Assembly (NCBI RefSeq): GCF_020400605.1
Contig: NZ_JAINRD010000018.1
Location: 124,001-188,000 of the forward strand
Origin: Streptomyces aculeolatus
Lineage (GTDB): Bacteria; Actinomycetota; Actinomycetes; Streptomycetales; Streptomycetaceae
Direction: 5' to 3'
DNA: 64,000 nucleotides
Made by a program: the position numbers and the translations under genes. This document shows, in pieces, positions 686 through 9,654 of the stretch. Each line of letters begins with the position of its first letter. Position 1 is the first letter of the stretch. The notes under the pieces were generated by a model, which saw only the letters and a list, made by a program, of their open reading frames with translations, had not been told where the DNA came from and searched no databases.

Positions 686-1099
686 GTGGGAAGCAAGTAC
701 ACGAAGCGGTACTCGGAGGAGTTCAAGCGGGACGCCATCGCGCTTGTGGCCTCCCCGGGCCGGACGGTGACTGAGGTCGCCCCGGAACTCCACATCACCT
801 CGGAGAGCCTGCGGGGCTGGGTGAAGAAGGCCAGCGGTGTCGGGCAAGCCGCTGCGGGCGCGCCGGTGGCCGCCGGTAGCGGACCGGACGCGGTCGAGCG
901 GGAGGAACTCAAGCGGCTGCGCAAGCTCGCCACCGACCAGGCCAGGACGATCGAGATCCTGAAAAAAGGGAACCGGCCGGGCCGAGCGGGTCGGCGAGTC
1001 GAGGCGGCTGTCCGAGCGTCTGGGTTTCGAGCCGGTCGGCGGGTCCCCGACGCCGTCGACGGCGTGGCCGGGTGCGTTTGCTGGCGCCGACTCATCTGA
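686..1099 (+). pseudogene. IS3-family transposase OrfA remnant
   Basis: The first ~90 codons, from the GTG at 686, encode a typical IS3 OrfA. It opens KYTKRYSEEFKRDAIALV, continues with the HTH stretch that ends in SLRGWVKKA, and has a leucine-rich tail ELKRLRKLATDQARTIEILKK. Family members continue with a short tail and then an OrfB carrying the DDE domain. Here the frame turns into a low-complexity Arg/Gly stretch after EILKK, and no OrfB follows before the convergent deacetylase gene. The A-run AAAAAA near 962 is where OrfA-OrfB frameshifting is normally expected, so the break lies close to the old junction. I read it as a truncated IS relic that cannot move by itself. Confidence 0.75.
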
Positions 1100-2537
1100 C
1101 TACCTGACGCTGGAGCCCCTGTAGATCGTCACCCCCGGCGCAGCCCCCTGCACATCGGCCGACGCGCAGCGCGGTGACCACTGGCCAGGGGGTGTCGCGG
1201 TCGGGGCGGGACGCGGAGACGGCGATGCCGCCGGTGGCCACCGGGCCGGGGACCGTGGTGGTCAGGGTGACCGCGCCGTCGACCCGCAGGGCCGCCCGCC
1301 TGCCGCTGACCGTCAGTTCGATCCGGTGCACCTCCGCGCCGGGGAGCTCGCGCTCGGCCACCACCTGCCCGTCCCCGGCCAGCCGGGCCCGGCCGTAGGA
1401 GATCCGCACCTGCATCGGCGTCCCGCCGACCCGGGCGGTGAGGCCGAACGTCGCGCCCTCCGGCGCCAGGCCGGTGACGTCCGCCCGCACCGTGTAGTGG
1501 TCCCAGTCCGCGGTGGCGTGCGGGGTGTACTCCGCGTACTGGTAGTCGCCCTCGCGCGGTCGGCGCGCGCCGTTGAACGGGAAGTCACCGGGGTCCAGGG
1601 GGCGGCGGTCTACTGAGCGCCAGTCGTGGCGTGCGGCCAGCGGCTCGGCCTCGGGCGGCCGCGGTGTGCGCCGCGCGACCTCGCGGACCAGTGCGCCGGC
1701 CGTGGTGCCGGACAGCACCTCCAGGCGTTCGAACCGGCCCGCGGCGGCGGCCCGCCGGCTGGGCGGGAGCGGGGTGGCGCTGCGGTTGGTGAGGGCGGCG
1801 GTGAACAGCCGGCCGACGACCTCGTCGGCGAAGCCACGGGTCTCGGAGAAGGGGTAGGAGAACAGCACGGGGCGCGGCAGGCCGTGCTCGGCGAACGCGG
1901 CCAATGAACGTTCCAGGTCCCGCCGGGCCGCGCTCGGGGAGGTCGCCGCGGCACCGCGCCGGTGGTGCAGGTCGTGGCTGTGGCTCTGCAGGTCCCAGCG
2001 CCCGCTCTGCCGCATGCGGGAGACCTCCGTCCAGGTCAGGTAGTAGGGGCGGGGGTCGCCGACCCGGCCGGTGATGAGGAACGCCGAGCCGTGCATGCGG
2101 TGCCGGGCGAGGATGCGGTCGGCATGCACCCATAGGCCCTTGGTGCCGTCGTCGAAGGTGAGCAGGACGGAGCGTGGCGGCACCGGCCCGCCCGCCACGT
2201 AGGTGGCGAACTCGCGGGCGGTCAGCGTCCGGTAGCCCGCCGCGCGCAGTGCGCTCAGGTGGGCGTCGAAGCGTTTCGGGGCGACGGTGTAGCGGCTGCC
2301 AGAGCCGGGCTTGATGTCGTGGTAGGCGAGGACGACCGGCGCGGCGCGGTCCGGCAGGCCGACGCCCAGCTCCCGCCATGCGGCCATCTGCCCGGGTGCC
2401 GCCCCGGCGGTGGGCGCGGCGTGCTGCGCGGCGACCTGGCCGGTGCCCTCCTGCAGGTGCCAGGCGGCGGCGAACGGCGCGGCCAGCACGGCGGCGGTCA
2501 GCAGACCGAGGCCCGCCCGGGCCAGCCGGGCATTCAC
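1092..2537 (-). CDS. Secreted polysaccharide deacetylase (NodB domain) with C-terminal jelly-roll-like domain
   Basis: This 481-residue protein starts with GTG at 2537. That codon overlaps the stop of the 36-residue gene as GTGA, which is why I prefer it to the in-frame GTG seven codons upstream. An uncleaved signal or signal peptide (about residues 8-25) exports it. The NodB homology domain (about 65-310) has AYHD, the TFDDG motif near 127-131 and SHSHDLHH near 185-191, which supply the catalytic Asp and the metal-binding Asp/His. The last ~150 residues look beta-rich and resemble a laminin-G/concanavalin-like sugar-binding fold; this is inference. It is the last gene of the polysaccharide operon and probably removes N-acetyl groups from the polymer outside the membrane, as IcaB/PgaB-type enzymes do. 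The final residues overlap DNA next to the IS relic, so the very C-terminus may be rearranged. Confidence 0.85.
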   Translation of the reverse strand: MNARLARAGLGLLTAAVLAAPFAAAWHLQEGTGQVAAQHAAPTAGAAPGQMAAWRELGVGLPDRAAPVVLAYHDIKPGSGSRYTVAPKRFDAHLSALRAAGYRTLTAREFATYVAGGPVPPRSVLLTFDDGTKGLWVHADRILARHRMHGSAFLITGRVGDPRPYYLTWTEVSRMRQSGRWDLQSHSHDLHHRRGAAATSPSAARRDLERSLAAFAEHGLPRPVLFSYPFSETRGFADEVVGRLFTAALTNRSATPLPPSRRAAAAGRFERLEVLSGTTAGALVREVARRTPRPPEAEPLAARHDWRSVDRRPLDPGDFPFNGARRPREGDYQYAEYTPHATADWDHYTVRADVTGLAPEGATFGLTARVGGTPMQVRISYGRARLAGDGQVVAERELPGAEVHRIELTVSGRRAALRVDGAVTLTTTVPGPVATGGIAVSASRPDRDTPWPVVTALRVGRCAGGCAGGDDLQGLQRQVVR

Positions 2538-2644
2538 AGCCCGGGCCACTGCGGCCACCGGCCGCGGCCGAGGACCAGCAGGTAGAGCGCGGCCAGGACC
2601 AGGGCGGTGACGGTCGCGGCCAGGGCCCCGGGGAGCCGGTTCAT
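2534..2644 (-). CDS. 36-residue single-pass membrane peptide between synthase and deacetylase
   Basis: An ATG at 2644 overlaps the glycosyltransferase stop as ATGA, and its own TGA overlaps the deacetylase GTG as GTGA. It encodes 36 residues: MNRLPG, a hydrophobic helix (ALAATVTALVLAALYLLVLG) and a short basic/aromatic tail. Two nested 4-bp overlaps strongly suggest a translated, coupled gene. I do not recognise the family. By position it resembles the small membrane partners (IcaD, PgaD) that accompany processive GT2 polysaccharide synthases, but there is no sequence basis for homology. It could also act only as a translational bridge. Confidence 0.6.
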   Translation of the reverse strand: MNRLPGALAATVTALVLAALYLLVLGRGRWPQWPGL

Positions 2645-4044
2645 GTGGCGCTCCTCGACCAGACGCCGCGCCGGATGGTGAGCAGCGACCACGCCAGCAG
2701 CCAGGACAGCAGGGTCGCGGAGAGGAGGCTCATCAGCGGCCGGTAGCGCCAGCGGGTGCTGCCCGGGTGGTCGAGGCGGAACGCGGCACCCCACACCGCG
2801 CCCTTGAGCAGGATGCCCGCGAGATAGAGGAGGGTGAGCACCGCGGCGCCGGTCAGCGGCGCCCAGATCAGGTGGCGGACGGCCATGACGGGGGCGACCA
2901 GGACCCAGAGCACGTGCCCGTAGTAGAGGGCGGCGGCGCCGGGGCCGCAGCGCCAGATGAAGGTGCCGGTGAAGAAGATGTTGCGGATGAAGCTCTTCTT
3001 CCAGCGGACCTGCTGGCGCAGGAACGGGCGGAAGCGGGCGGGCACGGTGGTGTGCACGGCGGCGGAGCGGACGTAGCCGGTGCGCCAGGGCAGCTCGGGG
3101 TGGTCGGCGGCGGTGACGAACGGCGAGTCGGCGTGCCGTTCCTTGAGGCGGCGGCCCAGCCGGCGCTGGCCGAGGACGTAGCCGGTGAGCTGGCGGTCGG
3201 TGGCGAAGCGGAAGTCGCGGCCGAGGAAGCGGTCGTCGGCCCAGGCGGGCAGGTAGTTGTAGACCGCGTCGCGGCGGAAGACGGCCAGCGGGCCGGAGAT
3301 GCAGGTGACGGCGCCGAAGACGGCCTCGGCGGCCTTGGCGATGCGGAACTGGCCCTCGTACCAGACGTCCTGGATGCGGGTGAGGAGGGTGTCGTCGGCG
3401 TTGAGGGCGCGGGCGTGCCCGCCGACGGCGCCGAGTTCGGGGTGCGCGACCAGGGCAGCGACGCAGCGGGAGAGTGCGTCGGGGGCGAGTACGCAGTCGG
3501 AGTCGGTGAAGGCGAGCACGTCGCCGTCGGCCAGGGCCGCGGCGCGGACCAGGGCGCGTTTCTTGCCGACGTTCGCATCCAGGCAGACAACGCGGACGGG
3601 AAGTTCGGCGGCGAGGGCGCGCAGGATGGCCGGGGTGCGGTCGGTGGAGGCGTCGTCGACCACGATGACCTGGGTGTCGGGGTGGTCGCCGGCGATCATG
3701 GAGCGTACGCACGCCTCGATGCGGTCCTCCTCGTCCTTGACGGCGAGGAGGAAGCTCACCCGGGGGCGGGCCGGCAGAGCGGGGAAGTCGGCGGCGTTCC
3801 GGGGGCGGTGGCGGAGGGGTCCCTCCGCGGGATCGTCGTAGTGGGCGTAGGCGATGAACAGCATGGCGGTGGTGCCCGCCAGCACGAGGAAGCCGTAGCC
3901 GAGCAGCAGGGGCGCGCGGCTGAGTCCGGGCGCCCGGGTGGCGAGGAGTACCAGCAGCGGGGTGAGAGCGAGCAGGGTGACCAGGCGGCGCAGCGCATGG
4001 CGGACGCTGGGGTCGGCGGTCGCCGGCCGGGTGGTGGCCTTCAT
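2641..4044 (-). CDS. Processive family 2 glycosyltransferase, hyaluronan/chitin-synthase-like
   Basis: The 467-residue membrane protein starts at ATG 4044, overlapping the upstream stop as ATGA. Two N-terminal membrane helices (about 20-36 and 45-66) precede a cytosolic GT-A domain. That domain has SFLLAVKDEE near 97-106, VVDDAST near 128-134, DSD near 181-183, SGPLAVFRRD near 250-259, TDRQLT near 282-287 and the processive signature QQVRWKKSF near 344-352 (QxxRW). About four further helices follow. The SGPL, DRxLT and QxxRWxKS set is characteristic of the class I hyaluronan, chitin and NodC synthase group. Expected role: polymerise a UDP-sugar at the membrane and extrude the chain. The neighbouring nucleotide-sugar dehydrogenase suggests a uronic-acid-containing polymer; product identity cannot be read from sequence. 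An upstream in-frame extension to 5637 lies over the dehydrogenase gene and is rejected. Confidence 0.85.
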   Translation of the reverse strand: MKATTRPATADPSVRHALRRLVTLLALTPLLVLLATRAPGLSRAPLLLGYGFLVLAGTTAMLFIAYAHYDDPAEGPLRHRPRNAADFPALPARPRVSFLLAVKDEEDRIEACVRSMIAGDHPDTQVIVVDDASTDRTPAILRALAAELPVRVVCLDANVGKKRALVRAAALADGDVLAFTDSDCVLAPDALSRCVAALVAHPELGAVGGHARALNADDTLLTRIQDVWYEGQFRIAKAAEAVFGAVTCISGPLAVFRRDAVYNYLPAWADDRFLGRDFRFATDRQLTGYVLGQRRLGRRLKERHADSPFVTAADHPELPWRTGYVRSAAVHTTVPARFRPFLRQQVRWKKSFIRNIFFTGTFIWRCGPGAAALYYGHVLWVLVAPVMAVRHLIWAPLTGAAVLTLLYLAGILLKGAVWGAAFRLDHPGSTRWRYRPLMSLLSATLLSWLLAWSLLTIRRGVWSRSAT

Positions 4045-5321
4045 ACGAGGTACCTGTGCTTGAGGCTGTCGAACCGGTAGGTGGCGTCGAGGACGGGACC
4101 CGGCTGGGCATGGAGCCAGCCGGTGTCCTGTCCGGGGTGCAGGGTGTGCACAAGGACCAGGTCCCATCGGGCGCCGCCCGGGTCCGGGTGGCTGTGCAGC
4201 AGCCGGGTGCCCAGGCGGAGTTCGGGGACCAGCGGATCGGTGTACGCGACGTCGGCGCCGGCCTCGGCGAGGTCGGCCATGATCGCGAGCGCGGGCGACT
4301 CGCGGCAGTCCGCGACGCCCGGCTTGTACGCCACGCCGGCCAGCAGCACGCGCGCGCCGCGGGGCACGCCGCCGCCAGGCGCTGCGCTGCGCTCGGCGAG
4401 CAGGTCCAGGGCCCGGCAGGCGACGGTGTGCGGCCGGGCGGCGAGCGCGGCCATCGCGGTCTCGGTCACCGGCGCCGCCACCCGCCCGCCGCGCAGCTGC
4501 CACAGCAGGTAGTGCGGGTCGCAGGGAATACAGTGGCCGCCGGCCCCCGGGCCGGGCTGGAAGGGCAGGAAGCCGTAGGGCTTGGTGGCGGCGGCGTCCA
4601 CGATCTCCGCGGCGTCCAGGCTGAGGTGCCCGGCGATGTCGGCGAACTCGTTGGCCAGGGCGATGTTGACGGCCCGGAAGGTGTTCTCCAGGAGCTTGGT
4701 CAGCTCGGCGGCCTCGGGCGAGCCGACCACGTGGACCCCGGCGGCGACCGGTTCGAGGAACGCGGCGGCGCGGCGGGCGCACTCGGGGCTCGCGCCGCCG
4801 ACAACGCGCCGGACGGTGCGCTGAGGGCGGCCGACATTGCCCGGATCGATGCGCTCGGGGGCGCAGGCGACGAAGACGTCGTGCGCGGGGCTGAGCCCGC
4901 GGGCTTCGAGAGGGCGCAGGAGCAGCTCGCGGGTGGTGCCGACCCAACTGGTGGAGGCCAGGACGAGGGTCTGGCCGGGGTGGGCGTGGGCGACGGCCGC
5001 GGCGCAGGCGGCCTTCAGCGCCCGCAGATCGGGCAGCCGGTGGGCGTCGACGGGCGTGGGGACGCAGATGACAACGGCGTCCGCACCGGCCAGCCGGGCG
5101 GGGTCGGTAGTGAGGTCGAACGACGGGCCGCCGGCGTGCGCGGTGAGCCGGTCCCGGTCCTCGGGCAGCAGATCTACCCGGCCGCGCCTGATGTCGGCGA
5201 GCCGGCCCGGGTCGCTGTCGAGGCCGATAACCGGCGCTCCGACGGCGAGCAGCGCGAGCGCGGTGGGCAGGCCGACGTAGCCGAGCCCGACGACCGCCAC
5301 CGTTCCGGAAGACCATCGCAT
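4041..5321 (-). CDS. UDP-sugar 6-dehydrogenase (UDP-Glc/UDP-GlcNAc dehydrogenase family)
   Basis: The 426-residue protein oxidises the C6 hydroxyl of a UDP-hexose or UDP-N-acetylhexosamine to the uronic acid using two NAD+. Visible motifs: Rossmann GLGYVGLP near 12-19, VICVPTP, APERIDPGN, a helical ELTKLLENTFRAVNIALANE segment, and the catalytic Cys in GAGGHCIP. A C-terminal UDP-binding domain (GVAYKPGVADCRESPA) follows. The APERIDPGN variant leans toward the WbpA/UDP-GlcNAc dehydrogenase branch rather than HasB/Ugd, but substrate is uncertain. It is first in a four-gene operon and would supply the uronic donor for the following glycosyltransferase. Start ATG 5321; an internal GTG ten codons later is possible because no strong Shine-Dalgarno site is visible. 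Confidence 0.85.
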   Translation of the reverse strand: MRWSSGTVAVVGLGYVGLPTALALLAVGAPVIGLDSDPGRLADIRRGRVDLLPEDRDRLTAHAGGPSFDLTTDPARLAGADAVVICVPTPVDAHRLPDLRALKAACAAAVAHAHPGQTLVLASTSWVGTTRELLLRPLEARGLSPAHDVFVACAPERIDPGNVGRPQRTVRRVVGGASPECARRAAAFLEPVAAGVHVVGSPEAAELTKLLENTFRAVNIALANEFADIAGHLSLDAAEIVDAAATKPYGFLPFQPGPGAGGHCIPCDPHYLLWQLRGGRVAAPVTETAMAALAARPHTVACRALDLLAERSAAPGGGVPRGARVLLAGVAYKPGVADCRESPALAIMADLAEAGADVAYTDPLVPELRLGTRLLHSHPDPGGARWDLVLVHTLHPGQDTGWLHAQPGPVLDATYRFDSLKHRYLV

Positions 5322-6070
5322 GGTGAGCCCACCCGCCGGCGAAGAGGAATTGTCCGAGTGTGTCCTTTGCGTAGAACATACCGGCAGAGATTCCTAGATA
5401 GGGGTATTTGTCGCTTCGATCCCGGCGTCCTGGGCGTCGAGGGCCAGCACGCCCAGCGGGGTACCGTCCGGGCGGGGCGACGATCAGCCGCGCGGCGGCC
5501 GGGGCCCGCTCGACACCCTGGGAGACCTCGCTGAGCGCGTGCAAGCTGCACGCCAGCGCGGTATCCAGGCCGCCATCCTCCGTGAGGTTGGCGGAGTCAT
5601 CGACGCTGGTCCAGCGTCCGATCTGGTCGGTGGGCATGACGGGGCTCTTGCGGTTCCATTCCTGGGCACTCGGTAAGGCGGGGAAGCGAGAAGGCCCGGG
5701 CGGTCAAGGACCTCACCCGCGATGACGAGGTCGCGGCGCCGGCCGCGGCCAGTCTGCTGAGCCGTCCGCAGACCGCTTCCGTCCTGCCGGCTGCCGAGCG
5801 GGTCCGCGCGGTCCAGCACCTGACCTGCAACGAGGAGGTACACCGTCGAGTTCCTGCGCTGGTCGTATGCGTGGACCGCGTATGTCAGCCCGATCGCGCG
5901 AAGACGCGCTGGAGGTAGCGCAACTTCGAACTGCGCAACCAGTGCAGTAAGCAACTCTGACCGAGCTCCGAATGCCGCGGTTACAGAAACAGGCTGCCGG
6001 ATCCCCGGTGTTGGGGCGGTCGGGGAGTGCTGCTTCTTGTGGTCGCGTACGCAGCCAGGACAACCCTGTA
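5322..6070. other. Operon leader region and unrecognised sequence upstream of the IS
   Basis: About 750 bp without a convincing gene. A relatively AT-rich patch at 5345-5415 probably holds the minus-strand promoter of the polysaccharide operon, though no unambiguous -35/-10 pair stands out. Minus-strand sequence from about 5637 to 5450 is open and protein-like but has no recognisable domain and runs into the dehydrogenase in another frame, so it may be a broken gene. Confidence 0.45.
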
Positions 6071-6102: not shown

Positions 6103-6993
6103 TTATGCAGCGAGCGCTGCGGGTGGGGTCATGATGGTCTCGTACTCGACAGGGGTCAATCGGCCCAGGCGTCGCTGGCGACGGCGCCGGTGGTAGGTGC
6201 GTTCGATCCAGGTCACGATCGCGATCCGCAACTCCTGCCGGGTGGCCCAGCTGCGGCGGTCGAGGACGTTCTTCTGAAGCAGCGCGAAGAAGCTCTCCAT
6301 CGCGGCGTTGTCGCCGGCCGCCCCGACCCGCCCCATGGAGCCGACCAGGCCGTGCCGGGTGAGCACGGCGGCGACCTTGCGTGACCGAAACTGCGATCCG
6401 CGATCGGAATGCACGATGCACCCGGTCACCTGGCCGCGGCGGGCCGCCGCGGACTGAAGCGCGGCCACCGCGAGCCGGGACTTCATCCGGCCGTCGATGG
6501 AGTAGCCCACGATGCGGCCGGAGTAGACGTCCTTGACCGCGCACAGATACAGCTTGCCCTCACCGGTCGGGTGCTCGGTGATGTCCGTGAGCCACAGCCG
6601 GTTGGGCGCGTCGGCGGTGAAGTCACGCCGCACCCGGTCATCGTGCACCGGCGGCCCGGCCTTGGCGTTCTTGCCGCGGCCCCTTCGCTTGCCGAAGGCG
6701 CTCCACCATCGGTTGTCCCGGCAGATCCGCCAGGCGGTCCGCTCGGCCATCACATGACCCGCGGCCCGCGCTTCGTCGAGGAGGAAGCGGTGGCCGAACT
6801 CGGGGTCATCGCGATGCGCGTCGAACAGGGCGTTGGCCCGATAGGCGGCGGTCCGTTCGGCGTCGGTGACCGGCCGGGCCAGCCACCGGTAGTAGGGCTG
6901 ACGGGCCAGCTTCAGCACCCGGCACGTCACCGCCACAGGCACCCGCACCCGGGCATCGGCGGCGGCCAGCTCGCGGACGAGCGGGTACATCAT
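6103..6993 (-). CDS. IS3-family transposase OrfB (DDE integrase domain)
   Basis: 296 residues. An N-terminal HTH_21-like segment (VAVTCRVLKLARQPYYRW) is followed by an rve integrase core. The DDE acids are in WLTDITEHPT, HSDRGSQFRS and NAAMESFFALLQKNVL, with the usual basic tail RTYHRRRRQRRLG and TPVEYE ending. The start ATG 6993 overlaps the OrfA stop, next to an AAAA run (GCAAAATGATG). A -1 slip there would join the frames directly, the usual way the IS3 fusion transposase is made. All catalytic positions are intact, so the element may be active. Confidence 0.9.
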   Translation of the reverse strand: MMYPLVRELAAADARVRVPVAVTCRVLKLARQPYYRWLARPVTDAERTAAYRANALFDAHRDDPEFGHRFLLDEARAAGHVMAERTAWRICRDNRWWSAFGKRRGRGKNAKAGPPVHDDRVRRDFTADAPNRLWLTDITEHPTGEGKLYLCAVKDVYSGRIVGYSIDGRMKSRLAVAALQSAAARRGQVTGCIVHSDRGSQFRSRKVAAVLTRHGLVGSMGRVGAAGDNAAMESFFALLQKNVLDRRSWATRQELRIAIVTWIERTYHRRRRQRRLGRLTPVEYETIMTPPAALAA

Positions 6994-7283
6994 TTTGCCG
7001 GCAGACTCGCCTGCGACAGATACGCCGCGGCCCTCCTGAGCACCTCGTTCTCCTGCTCCAGCAGCCGGATCCGCTTGCGGGCCTCGCGCAGCTCCGCCGA
7101 CTCCTTCGATGTCGTCCCGGGCCTGGTGCCCTCATCGGTGTCTGCGCGGCGCAGCCACTTCGCGAGCGTGATCGGGTGGACCCCGAAGTCGGTGGCGATC
7201 TGTTCCAGCGTGACGCCGGGCTCGCGGTTGCGGGCGACCCGTACGACGTCCTCGCGGAACTCCTTCGGATACGGCTTGGGCAC
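6990..7283 (-). CDS. IS3-family transposase OrfA (HTH protein)
   Basis: 97 residues, usual length for OrfA. The N-terminus PKPYPKEFREDVVRVARN plus TLEQIATDFGVHPITLAKWLRRAD forms the helix-turn-helix that binds the terminal repeats. The C-terminal ELREARKRIRLLEQENEVLRRAAAYLS is a leucine zipper. It ends PAK-stop where A-rich DNA allows frameshifting into orfB. The start lies about 67 bp inside the inner edge of the right-hand inverted repeat side. Confidence 0.9.
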   Translation of the reverse strand: MPKPYPKEFREDVVRVARNREPGVTLEQIATDFGVHPITLAKWLRRADTDEGTRPGTTSKESAELREARKRIRLLEQENEVLRRAAAYLSQASLPAK

Positions 7284-7350: not shown

Positions 7351-7533
7351 AGGCGATGACGAGGACGTCGATGAGGTCGCCGCCGCTGCCGCGCCCTCGC
7401 CGTCTACGGCGAAGCCGTCGCCACCCGTTTCAGTGATCCCTGAAGGGTGTCCACACGCGCCGGCCCGTAGCGCGGCCAGAGTGTGTCCCGCCACCGCACG
7501 ACGCGAACGCAGCGCACCACGAAAGGAGCCCGT

Positions 7534-8358
7534 ATGTCGGCACCATCCGCGATCGATCACCATGCGAGGACCGGATACAGCCTCCCGTTGGCCTACTGGC
7601 TGGCCCAGGCATCCGATCTTGCGTACAAGGACGAGGCCACCATCGATTCCCGGGCCCGCGCCTGGGGTTTCGACGAGGTGCGCCACCATCAGACGCGGTT
7701 CACTCCCCCGTTCCCGCTCGAAGACAGCCAGGCGTACACCGCGGCCAGCGACCACATGATCATCACAGCCTTCCGCGGCACGGAGCCGGCGCAGATCCGG
7801 GACTGGCTGTCCGACGCGAGCACTCCCCCCTGGCCGGGCCCGGCCACCACGGGCTACGTGCACCACGGCTTCGCCGAGGCACTCCAGTCGATCTTCCCCG
7901 GGGTCAAGGACACCCTTGCGGAGTTGCGCACCGAGAACCAGACGGTGTGGTTCACCGGCCACAGTCTCGGCGGTGCACTCGCCATGCTCGCCGGTGCGCG
8001 GATGTACCTGGAGGACCCGCGGCTCCAGGCGGACGGCGTCTACACCTACGGGCAGCCCCGTACCTGCGACCGCATCCTGGCAGCCGCCTGCAACAAGGGC
8101 TTCACGAACCGCATGTACCGCTTCGTCAACAACAACGACATCGTTCCCCAACTGCCTCCCGAGCCCGTGTTCACGCACGTCGAGGCGCTCAGGTACATCG
8201 ACGCGGGCGGCAAACTGCACGACTCCATGGGCCTGCTCGGCAGTCTGGCGGACCGGGCCAAAGGACTGACCGCGGACGCCTTCGCCCCCGCTGCGGACGG
8301 CGTCCGGGACCACTCGATCAAGCGCTACATCGCCGCCATCGAGCAGAACCTCCCCTGA
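7534..8358 (+). CDS. Class 3 lipase family alpha/beta hydrolase
   Basis: 274 residues from ATG 7534, preceded by GAAAGGAG at a good distance; an earlier in-frame GTG gives a basic extension that I rejected. The Lipase_3 nucleophile elbow GHSLGGAL places the catalytic Ser near residue 144. The rest of the fold includes FRGTEPAQIRDWLSD, VHHGFAEAL and YTYGQPRTCD. NNNDIVPQLPP near 195-205 probably supplies the catalytic Asp, and a His near HSIKRYIA closes the triad. No signal peptide is visible, so it is cytosolic or exported non-classically. The substrate is probably an acylglycerol or other ester. It stands alone between the IS and decayed sequence. Confidence 0.85.
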   Translation: MSAPSAIDHHARTGYSLPLAYWLAQASDLAYKDEATIDSRARAWGFDEVRHHQTRFTPPFPLEDSQAYTAASDHMIITAFRGTEPAQIRDWLSDASTPPWPGPATTGYVHHGFAEALQSIFPGVKDTLAELRTENQTVWFTGHSLGGALAMLAGARMYLEDPRLQADGVYTYGQPRTCDRILAAACNKGFTNRMYRFVNNNDIVPQLPPEPVFTHVEALRYIDAGGKLHDSMGLLGSLADRAKGLTADAFAPAADGVRDHSIKRYIAAIEQNLP

Positions 8359-8574: not shown

Positions 8575-9654
8575 TCACCGGCCGGCGTGCCCTGGCCGCC
8601 CCCGTCCCTCCGAACCTGTGTGGTCGGTTCCGGCTGCCGGGTCCCGTACGCGAAAGACCCCGGGCCGTACCTCGTCGGACAGCAGGTGAATCTCCCTGTT
8701 GAAGTCCGGGGGCCATTGCGTGTCGGCGTTCCACTCGATTCCGGGCACGAGGGGGAGTTCCTGTACGTAGACCAGGTTCGCGCCGGACAGGTTCACGTCG
8801 GTCAGGATCACGGTGGCGGCCAGGAGCGCGTGGGACAGATCCGTATGGGAAAGGTTCGCGCCGGTCAGGTTCACATGCGTCAGGCGTGTGCCGGCCAGGT
8901 TCGCACGAGAGAGGTTCGCCCCGATGAGGTTCACATGCGCCAGGCGTGTGCCGGCCAGGTTCGCACCGGACAGCTTCGCGCAGATCAGATCCACGCGCGT
9001 CCGGTTCGTGCCGGACAGGTGCGTGTCGGACAGATCGGCCGAGGACAGGTCCGCGCCCCGCAGGTCCGCGGACGTCAGATCCCCGCCGGTGAGCACCGCG
9101 CGCCGAAGATCGCGGGCGCGGTCCGGGACAGGCCGGGGCGCCGCGAGGCGTTCGGCTGGTGGAACGGCACGTGCGGGCGGCTGAGCGGCGGCAGAGCGCT
9201 GTGCGATGGCGGACGCCGTGTCCTCCAGCGCGGCGGTAGGAGCATCCGGGCATGCGAGGTAGAGCAGCCCGCGCAGGATCTCGGCCTGCTTCTGCGTCTC
9301 GGGATCGTCCACCACGACTCCAGGCCAGGCGCGGTCTTGCCGCGGGTCACGGGTTCGGCAGACCGGGCACCGGCCGGAACGGGGGCTGAGCGAGATCACC
9401 CGGGCGAGCGCCAGGAGGACGTCGGCGGCGGCGTTCGCGGCCCGCCGCTCGCGCTCACGCAGCCCCGCCCCCGGCACGTGGGCCTTCTCAAGGATGAGGG
9501 TCTGGATTCTCCGGAAGTGCTCCTCGGCGAATTTCCAGTCCGGTTCGCGCGGCTGGACTTCAGCGGGGCCCTCGTGCGGGTGGAGGTTGCCGAAGGCGGT
9601 GACAGCCTCGGCGAGGTCACCGCCGCACCGGTGCAACTCGTGCAGAGTGATCAT
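8575..9654 (-). CDS. Pentapeptide-repeat protein
   Basis: 359 residues. The first ~170 are helical with no known domain, apart from a lone CPVC near residue 97 in a Pro/Arg/Asp-rich stretch. Residues ~178-290 carry about twenty pentapeptide repeats of the A(D/N)LxX type (SADLRGADLSSADLSDTHLS, LSGANLAGTRLAHVNLIGANL), which fold as a right-handed quadrilateral beta-helix. Some family members mimic DNA and protect gyrase, but many have no known role. The DNA from 8850 to 8990 repeats itself closely at base level, so the array grew by recent duplication. The start ATG overlaps the TGA of the broken upstream gene as ATGA, so the two were once a coupled pair. Confidence 0.85.
   Translation of the reverse strand: MITLHELHRCGGDLAEAVTAFGNLHPHEGPAEVQPREPDWKFAEEHFRRIQTLILEKAHVPGAGLRERERRAANAAADVLLALARVISLSPRSGRCPVCRTRDPRQDRAWPGVVVDDPETQKQAEILRGLLYLACPDAPTAALEDTASAIAQRSAAAQPPARAVPPAERLAAPRPVPDRARDLRRAVLTGGDLTSADLRGADLSSADLSDTHLSGTNRTRVDLICAKLSGANLAGTRLAHVNLIGANLSRANLAGTRLTHVNLTGANLSHTDLSHALLAATVILTDVNLSGANLVYVQELPLVPGIEWNADTQWPPDFNREIHLLSDEVRPGVFRVRDPAAGTDHTGSEGRGRPGHAGR

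Follow-up and report, generated by a model that had tools for sequence, protein, structure and literature searches.

A conserved four-gene cassette of Streptomyces aculeolatus and its predicted role in exopolysaccharide synthesis

Introduction

Class I hyaluronan synthase (HAS) systems, represented by HasA-HasB, CvHAS and the vertebrate HAS, are built on a membrane glycosyltransferase of family 2 (GT2) with DxD, SGPL, DRxLT and QxxRW motifs. Here we analyse a four-gene cassette in a 64,000-nucleotide stretch of Streptomyces aculeolatus DNA (contig NZ_JAINRD010000018.1, positions 124,001 to 188,000; hereafter the window) that encodes a nucleotide-sugar dehydrogenase, a membrane GT2 synthase with the same predicted fold and motifs, a small membrane peptide and an extracellular deacetylase. 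As in HasA-HasB, the dehydrogenase gene adjoins the synthase gene. Unlike in the HAS systems, the cassette dehydrogenase is of another class and a membrane peptide and a deacetylase are added, while the synthase has 19-22% identity over aligned residues to the HAS structures and falls in a separate clade. The coupling of synthesis to export by this fold is established for HAS (PMC10939387).

The IcaADBC and PgaABCD systems for poly-N-acetylglucosamine (PNAG) and the Streptomyces MatAB system likewise combine a membrane GT2 enzyme with an IcaB/PgaB-type deacetylase of carbohydrate esterase family 4 (CE4), and the Pga system also has a small membrane partner, PgaD. In the MatAB system GT2 and CE4 are fused within MatB, with MatA described as a helper whose function is unclear (PMC5972031), whereas the two activities are encoded by separate genes in the cassette. 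The cassette further differs from the PNAG systems in having a uronate-making gene and a synthase whose 108 bits fall far short of the PgaC/IcaA cut-off of 422. In the rhizobial NodBC system a CE4 deacetylase gene adjoins a chitin-synthase-like GT2 gene, but the nodABCI stretch seen has no dehydrogenase gene, and the cassette synthase lies far under the NodC cut-off. Bacterial chitin synthases of eukaryotic origin are described as mostly gammaproteobacterial (PMC5122149). The dehydrogenase itself resembles the uridine diphosphate (UDP)-N-acetylhexosamine (HexNAc) dehydrogenases WecC and Cap5O in its EN(T/S)(F/Y)R helix and GGHC motif, although the setting differs from theirs as the genome of the window is without a 2-epimerase family protein.

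We consider it fairly probable that the four genes form a cassette that is complete in itself, moves horizontally and directs the making of a synthase-dependent exopolysaccharide, one that contains N-acetylglucosaminuronate (GlcNAcA) and carries both carboxylates and free amines. No description of this four-gene cassette was found in the literature searched, where the coverage of subscription journals was thin.

Results

The four genes were found on the minus strand in the order dehydrogenase (5321-4041, 426 aa), synthase (4044-2641, 467 aa), peptide (2644-2534, 36 aa) and deacetylase (2537-1092, 481 aa). The first three start with ATG and the last with GTG, and all four frames are open. A preliminary description of this DNA had reported that they are joined by three successive 4-bp overlaps, and both the coordinates and the junctions (ATGA between dehydrogenase and synthase, ATGA between synthase and peptide, GTGA between peptide and deacetylase) bear this out. 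Pfam assigns dehydrogenase domains, GT2 and Polysacc_deac_1 to the three large proteins. Overlaps of four bases are common in actinomycete operons and are weak proof by themselves; the real signal of the cassette is its conserved gene order.

This order is conserved across Actinomycetota and beyond, and its conservation exceeds chance. A scan for relatives over named genomes gave 114 confirmed cases, the best 80 of which were analysed as loci (64 actinobacterial and 16 other, numbered with an L below); this set and the set of genus genomes appear to overlap and are not independent. Within the genus, the synthase was found at E 1e-40 or better and at least 64% identity in 15 of 295 genomes, and tblastn placed the dehydrogenase beside it in all fourteen genomes other than that of the window (partially where the flank was short) and the deacetylase in thirteen of them. 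The cassette is rare, being present in 15/295 genomes in the genus, 3/394 in the class and 4/396 in the phylum, each count including the genome of the window. The actinobacterial hosts are members of Streptomyces, Kitasatospora, Actinacidiphila, Micromonospora, Mangrovihabitans, Williamsia, Corynebacterium, Mycobacterium, Pseudonocardia, Nocardioides and Quadrisphaera together with other metagenome-assembled genomes (MAGs), and the named streptomycetes among them include S. tendae, S. parvulus and S. violaceorubidus.

The dehydrogenase gene is adjacent to the synthase gene in 63 of the 80 loci. Among the actinobacterial loci it is adjacent in 54, lost at a contig end in two and non-adjacent in eight; among the sixteen others, which belong to Patescibacteria, archaea and one unclassified bacterium, the corresponding numbers are nine, one and six. 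A match to the deacetylase profile or a lyase follows directly after the synthase in 62 of the 64 actinobacterial loci (61 inside the distance limit of the count, and L047), and a deacetylase and/or lyase gene does so in 14 of the 16 others. Two copies of the cassette about 15 kb apart were observed in Pseudonocardia endophytica (L082 and L083), the second of which encodes a deacetylase-like protein that is perhaps a binding-only paralogue.

The synthase had been described as a class I glycosyltransferase of the hyaluronan/chitin-synthase type with four named motifs, and all four of these are in place (DSD at 181, SGPL at 250, DRQLT at 283 and QQVRW at 344). An AlphaFold2 model with a mean predicted local distance difference test (pLDDT) score of 93.8, obtained from a 53-sequence alignment, superposes on the HAS structure 9yq5 with a VIA Z of 31.6 (2.6 A over 374 residues, 20% identity). 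Hyaluronan synthases take all of the Foldseek ranks 1-13 for this model and are also the closest PDB sequences. The Pyrobaculum mannosyltransferase 6yv7 comes next in VIA with a Z of 30.1, and chitin and cellulose synthases are lower. The prediction that the synthase works like a HAS is thus well supported by the model, whereas the statement that it is a HAS is not, as its family forms a clade of its own in the sequence tree. All 53 family members fall in one clade (98/98) apart from the six references, namely S. meliloti NodC, E. coli PgaC, a Paenibacillus GT2, a HasA-like enzyme from an E. faecium plasmid (our label, its record reading "glycosyltransferase") and parts of two HAS chains. Two outcomes would have spoken against the earlier description, a gene order conserved nowhere and a clustering of the synthase with enzymes of a known unrelated product. 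Neither was seen, since the family groups with none of these six and the order recurs as described above. The order among the references cannot be trusted because their branches are long. In the tree as drawn, Nitrosopumilus is basal and the Actinomycetota lie apart from the Patescibacteria and archaea, with the exception of two actinobacterial MAGs (L085 and L091) that fall among the latter.

Among the equivalog models NodC (137.7 bits, cut-off 550) and PgaC/IcaA (108.2 bits, cut-off 422.3) rank highest for the synthase, and membership in either family was dropped on these scores. No protein over the PgaC/IcaA cut-off was found in the window's own genome. The distinction from the PNAG-like MatAB system that was drawn in the preliminary description finds support in these scores.

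Other surroundings were noted at two further loci. In Nitrosopumilus (L101:1621-3351) the synthase relative is followed by a protein with a right-handed beta-helix and a weak, sub-cut-off NodB match. On a Paenibacillus cellulositrophicus plasmid (L110) a GT2 gene is flanked on both sides by polysaccharide deacetylase genes and accompanied by a GH18 gene, in what may be a cousin system; no dehydrogenase was found within the stretch seen. The GH18 profile was built on the L084 protein only and matched that protein alone.

As the preliminary description had proposed, the first gene encodes a sugar-nucleotide dehydrogenase (TIGR03026, E 5e-99). Its best equivalog-type models are those of the UDP-N-acetylmannosamine (UDP-ManNAc) dehydrogenases, with 185 and 177 bits, both under their cut-offs, followed by TviB (121), AglM (118), TuaD (78) and Ugd (37). 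The match to PDB 4r16 has an E of 7e-44, and the best solved relatives are a UDP-ManNAcA dehydrogenase, CalS8 and Cap5O. A similarity to WbpA is presumed as well. In our alignment WecC, 4r16, Cap5O and 3g79 have in common an arginine in the EN(T/S)(F/Y)R helix and the GGHC motif, which in the cassette enzyme read ENTFR (at 212) and GGHCIP (at 261). Both features are absent in E. coli Ugd, CalS8, 3vtf and the enzyme beside the HasA-like gene of the E. faecium plasmid. Their value as class marks was judged from eight aligned references, some of them, such as CalS8, with presumed activities. The helix arginine and the GGHC histidine are each present in 61 of 62 cassette dehydrogenases aligned (E <1e-100 and more than 380 residues, with split, partial and distant sequences such as L022, L033 and L084 excluded). 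The L022 enzyme, from Streptomyces sp. CNH099, is broken into two frames (L022:8710-10001), which is either a draft error or a true frameshift.

No protein of the UDP-N-acetylglucosamine (UDP-GlcNAc) 2-epimerase family (PF02350) was found in the window's genome, which is 99.99% complete, in a search that was positive in 11 of 14 control genomes. UDP-ManNAc is therefore unlikely as the dehydrogenase substrate there and was set aside for this genome. The family is also absent in 18 of 30 further cassette-bearing genomes; among the thirteen with a stated completeness of at least 90% it is absent in nine, the other seventeen being drafts and MAGs of unstated completeness. UDP-GlcNAc is then the simplest substrate, and the enzyme is predicted from its sequence to be a UDP-GlcNAc 6-dehydrogenase. 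Because of the UDP-HexNAc-type motifs and the missing 2-epimerase family, the acid sugar is most likely an N-acetylhexosaminuronate, with GlcNAcA as the best candidate, rather than glucuronate. Six dehydrogenases in the window's genome are over the TIGR03026 cut-off, and the motif was read in two of them, the cassette's own and one with GGSC, the type found in UDP-glucose dehydrogenases. UDP-glucuronate (UDP-GlcA) could thus have another source than the cassette.

These observations also bear on the hyaluronan- or glucuronan-type polymer predicted earlier. A hyaluronan- or heparosan-like chain would be made if the dehydrogenase supplied UDP-GlcA, the synthase alternated GlcA with GlcNAc and the deacetylase freed the amines of GlcNAc. 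HAS is indeed both the nearest solved fold and the nearest PDB sequence to the synthase, and the lyase regions described below would suit any 4-linked uronate. On the other hand, the dehydrogenase is without the motifs common to E. coli Ugd, CalS8, 3vtf and the E. faecium plasmid enzyme, and the synthase family lies outside the HAS references. We therefore regard such a chain as unlikely, though it deserves to be kept in mind, and the class of the dehydrogenase was the reason for not preferring hyaluronan proper.

The fourth gene encodes a deacetylase with the CE4 motifs TFDDG (at 127) and SHSHDLHH (at 185), matching PF01522 with an E of 1.6e-17 and IcaB (4wcj) with an E of 1e-16. It remains below the curated equivalog cut-offs though it is nearest to the IcaB/PgaB type by sequence and fold. 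The model (pLDDT 89, 38-sequence alignment) has a presumably membrane-spanning N-terminal helix (residues 2-31), a NodB catalytic domain (1839-2186, Pfam and structural match) and a C-terminal jelly-roll or concanavalin-like domain (residues about 289-462, 1143-1664). The secreted NodB deacetylase of the preliminary description is thus recovered in its motifs and fold as a protein that is membrane-anchored and extracellular in the model, and the "sugar-binding-like tail" as a predicted jelly-roll. VIA matches the NodB domain to PplD (6dq3, Z 26.1), IcaB (4wcj, 25.6) and PgaB (3vus, 24.9), and the jelly-roll to a phage fibre (8zdp, Z 15.1), CBM66 (4b1m, 14.6) and legume-lectin folds (about 12.8). 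Both aspartates of TFDDG and the first metal histidine, read off the alignment with IcaB, are invariant in 38 aligned deacetylases (the window's own and those from 37 of the 62 loci for which a start was assigned). The conserved columns of the jelly-roll extend to the archaeal and Patescibacterial members. In L089 the deacetylase-profile match is confined to the NodB half.

In nine loci (L086, L088, L090 and L091-L096), one of which, L091, is an actinobacterial MAG, the synthase is directly followed by a gene that encodes a heparinase II/III-type region. The lyase profile was built from L088, L090 and L096, which match by construction, and the other six loci are independent matches; the Pfam heparinase N and C models match in the seven of the nine loci that were scanned. 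In six of these loci the same gene also encodes a NodB domain; Pfam detects it in L088, L090, L093 and L094, and in L092 and L095 just the deacetylase profile does. No NodB domain was found in the L096 protein, and in L086 and L091 the gene is truncated where the contig ends. The single proteins with both domains (L088:11308-15288, L090:11299-14682, L094:11317-14925 and L093:3704-7318) occur in Patescibacteria, an archaeon and an unclassified bacterium. Enzymes of the heparinase II/III fold are lyases of uronate-containing chains, and a fusion of lyase and deacetylase beside the synthase is what would be expected if the chain contains a uronate as well as an N-acetylated sugar. The occurrence of these regions where a deacetylase is otherwise encoded is an independent indication of a uronate chain. 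Of the uronic, partly de-N-acetylated polymer proposed in the preliminary description, the uronic character is thus favoured, while its assignment to the hyaluronan or glucuronan type runs against the UDP-HexNAc motifs of the dehydrogenase and their absence from the enzyme beside the E. faecium HasA-like gene.

The same regions argue against a chitin- or PNAG-like homopolymer of GlcNAc with the dehydrogenase as a passenger, as does the frequent adjacency of the dehydrogenase. Such a product would accord with the nearness of the deacetylase to IcaB, PgaB and PplD, with NodC and PgaC as the top, though sub-cut-off, synthase models and with the loci that have no adjacent dehydrogenase, yet taken together we consider it very improbable.

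The 36-residue peptide is an unnamed conserved microprotein tied to the cassette. It is present in 61 of the 64 actinobacterial loci and in none of the sixteen Patescibacterial, archaeal and unclassified ones. The window's copy is a single-span peptide with the motif Y-x-x-V-L-x-R-G, and all 61 copies have a net positive N-terminus and a hydrophobic stretch ending in a Y-x-x-V-x-x-R-G-like motif. The search pattern itself required such a stretch and motif, so a sequence profile (A5) gives the stronger evidence. In twelve cassette-bearing genomes, at least one of which (G283, locus L067) also gave a row of the profile, this profile matches just once per genome and always at the cassette; among 61 relatives it matches the window's own genome only. 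Counted by codon position, the substitutions in the peptide block (868/626/969, from 150 pairs that are not independent) fit a coding sequence, albeit weakly. The net positive N-terminus predicts an N-in, C-out topology. From gene order and co-occurrence, our guess is that the peptide stabilises the synthase or tethers the deacetylase.

The cassette seems to be mobile as a unit, to judge from the sequence comparison with Streptomyces sp. CNH099, in which its immediate flanks are unmatched. The match to this genome is one piece (1133-5409, 88%) that leaves out the last few deacetylase codons, and the only other match is 62 bp long and far off. IS3-type transposase genes occur on both sides of the cassette, a truncated orfA by its 3' end (686-1099, plus strand, PF01527) and an intact-looking element upstream (6103-7283, minus strand; orfA 6990-7283 and orfB 6103-6993; PF01527 and PF00665). 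A class 3 lipase gene just beyond the latter (7483-8358) shows no sign of cassette membership, and a protein with pentapeptide-like repeats (an A-D/N-L pattern in the translation) is encoded further on (8575-9654, minus strand).

A larger conserved cluster was sought by k-mer comparison of the neighbouring frames. This gave a giant chain of 70 loci that consists mostly of spurious high-GC frames, apart from which the families cover at most six loci each. A stricter repeat gave a still spurious-looking cluster of 19 loci, one cluster of nine Patescibacterial and actinobacterial-MAG loci, and others of at most eight. Most neighbour families recur just within subclades. In Pfam tallies of the neighbours, covering 72 of 100 proteins from 16 loci and 75 frames, many probably not genes, taken from 19 actinobacterial loci, no shared pathway enzyme was found among the top 25 of 113 and the top 25 of 53 families. 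The commonest family is the concanavalin-like PF13385, with 6 of the 72 proteins.

The view that nothing else is shared besides the cassette was judged too strong, as one kind of protein does recur. It is encoded after the synthase in L079 (L079:11449-12450), the member for which no Pfam match was found, with relatives near the cassette in L087 (5551-6492), L092 (8007-8948) and L093 (7299-8216), several kb off in L085, and at the C-terminal end of the L088 fusion (L088:11299-15291). Matches have an E of 7e-55 or better in L085, L087, L088, L092 and L093, and weaker ones (E 1e-9 to 4e-5) occur in L044, L059, L072 and L073. The family thus recurs by the cassette in several Patescibacterial loci, and its weaker relatives lie near a few actinobacterial copies. 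These proteins are perhaps a further chain-binding part.

The neighbourhoods also bear on whether the product could be a cell-wall glycan of the teichuronic type, or a lipid-anchored one, instead of a free exopolysaccharide. Amino-uronates occur in actinobacterial wall polymers, some members of the family come from corynebacteria and one mycobacterium, and one Patescibacterial neighbourhood (L079) contains a bacterial sugar transferase. Against this, the scanned neighbours (top 25 families per tally) show no recurrent lipid-carrier transferase, flippase or wall ligase, and a HAS fold would couple synthesis to export by itself (PMC10939387). A wall or lipid-anchored glycan thus appears quite improbable.

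Discussion

The most likely product of the cassette is an exopolysaccharide with GlcNAcA, probably together with GlcNAc, that is partly de-N-acetylated outside the cell. Judging from its class motifs and the missing 2-epimerase, the dehydrogenase would oxidise UDP-GlcNAc to UDP-GlcNAcA. The synthase would then polymerise this acid sugar, probably with UDP-GlcNAc, and pass the chain out through its own channel, as its predicted fold suggests. The single-span peptide, placed N-in by its charge and co-translated with the synthase, would by conjecture stabilise the synthase or tether the next protein. Finally, the membrane-anchored deacetylase may grip the emerging chain by its lectin-like domain and strip some of the N-acetyl groups, leaving a polymer with carboxylates and free amines that presumably serves as a matrix or adhesive coat. 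We infer the donor sugars, the polymerisation, export and deacetylation of the chain and its matrix role alike.

Several observations weigh against this proposal. Fourteen of the 80 loci, uncut by a contig end, are without an adjacent dehydrogenase, and in L075 and L097 no deacetylase was found adjoining. An S. hoynatensis locus (L065) encodes, where the deacetylase would lie, a NodB protein from a different subfamily, while the L083 protein has lost its recognisable NodB domain and matches the deacetylase profile in its C-terminal half only. The motif class does not fix the substrate of the dehydrogenase, for which the model of AglM, a UDP-glucose dehydrogenase, outscores TuaD (118 against 78 bits), and 12 of the 30 further cassette-bearing genomes, including that of the close relative L023, do encode a PF02350 protein, so that UDP-ManNAc is conceivable in some hosts. 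The long branches of the references in the synthase tree count on the same side.

A wider proposal can be put forward tentatively, at somewhat less than even chances. The cassette may represent an undescribed class of exopolysaccharide systems, spread by gene transfer among Actinomycetota, Patescibacteria and archaea, in which a HAS-like enzyme makes a zwitterionic GlcNAcA polymer; the actinomycetes would have added a microprotein of about 35 residues, and several Patescibacteria would use a lyase-deacetylase fusion.

As some of the hosts are named streptomycetes, the prediction is directly testable. If it is true, some streptomycetes would have an extra synthase-type matrix polymer beyond the products of CslA and MatAB, one with both acid and free-amine groups, and this polymer, made by three or four genes, would be a natural relative of N-deacetylated glycosaminoglycans. 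The cassette would also offer a compact system for how a single-site GT2 enzyme picks an acidic donor and for how a microprotein links a synthase to extracellular modification, and it would raise the question of why the reduced Patescibacteria and archaea keep the same cassette.

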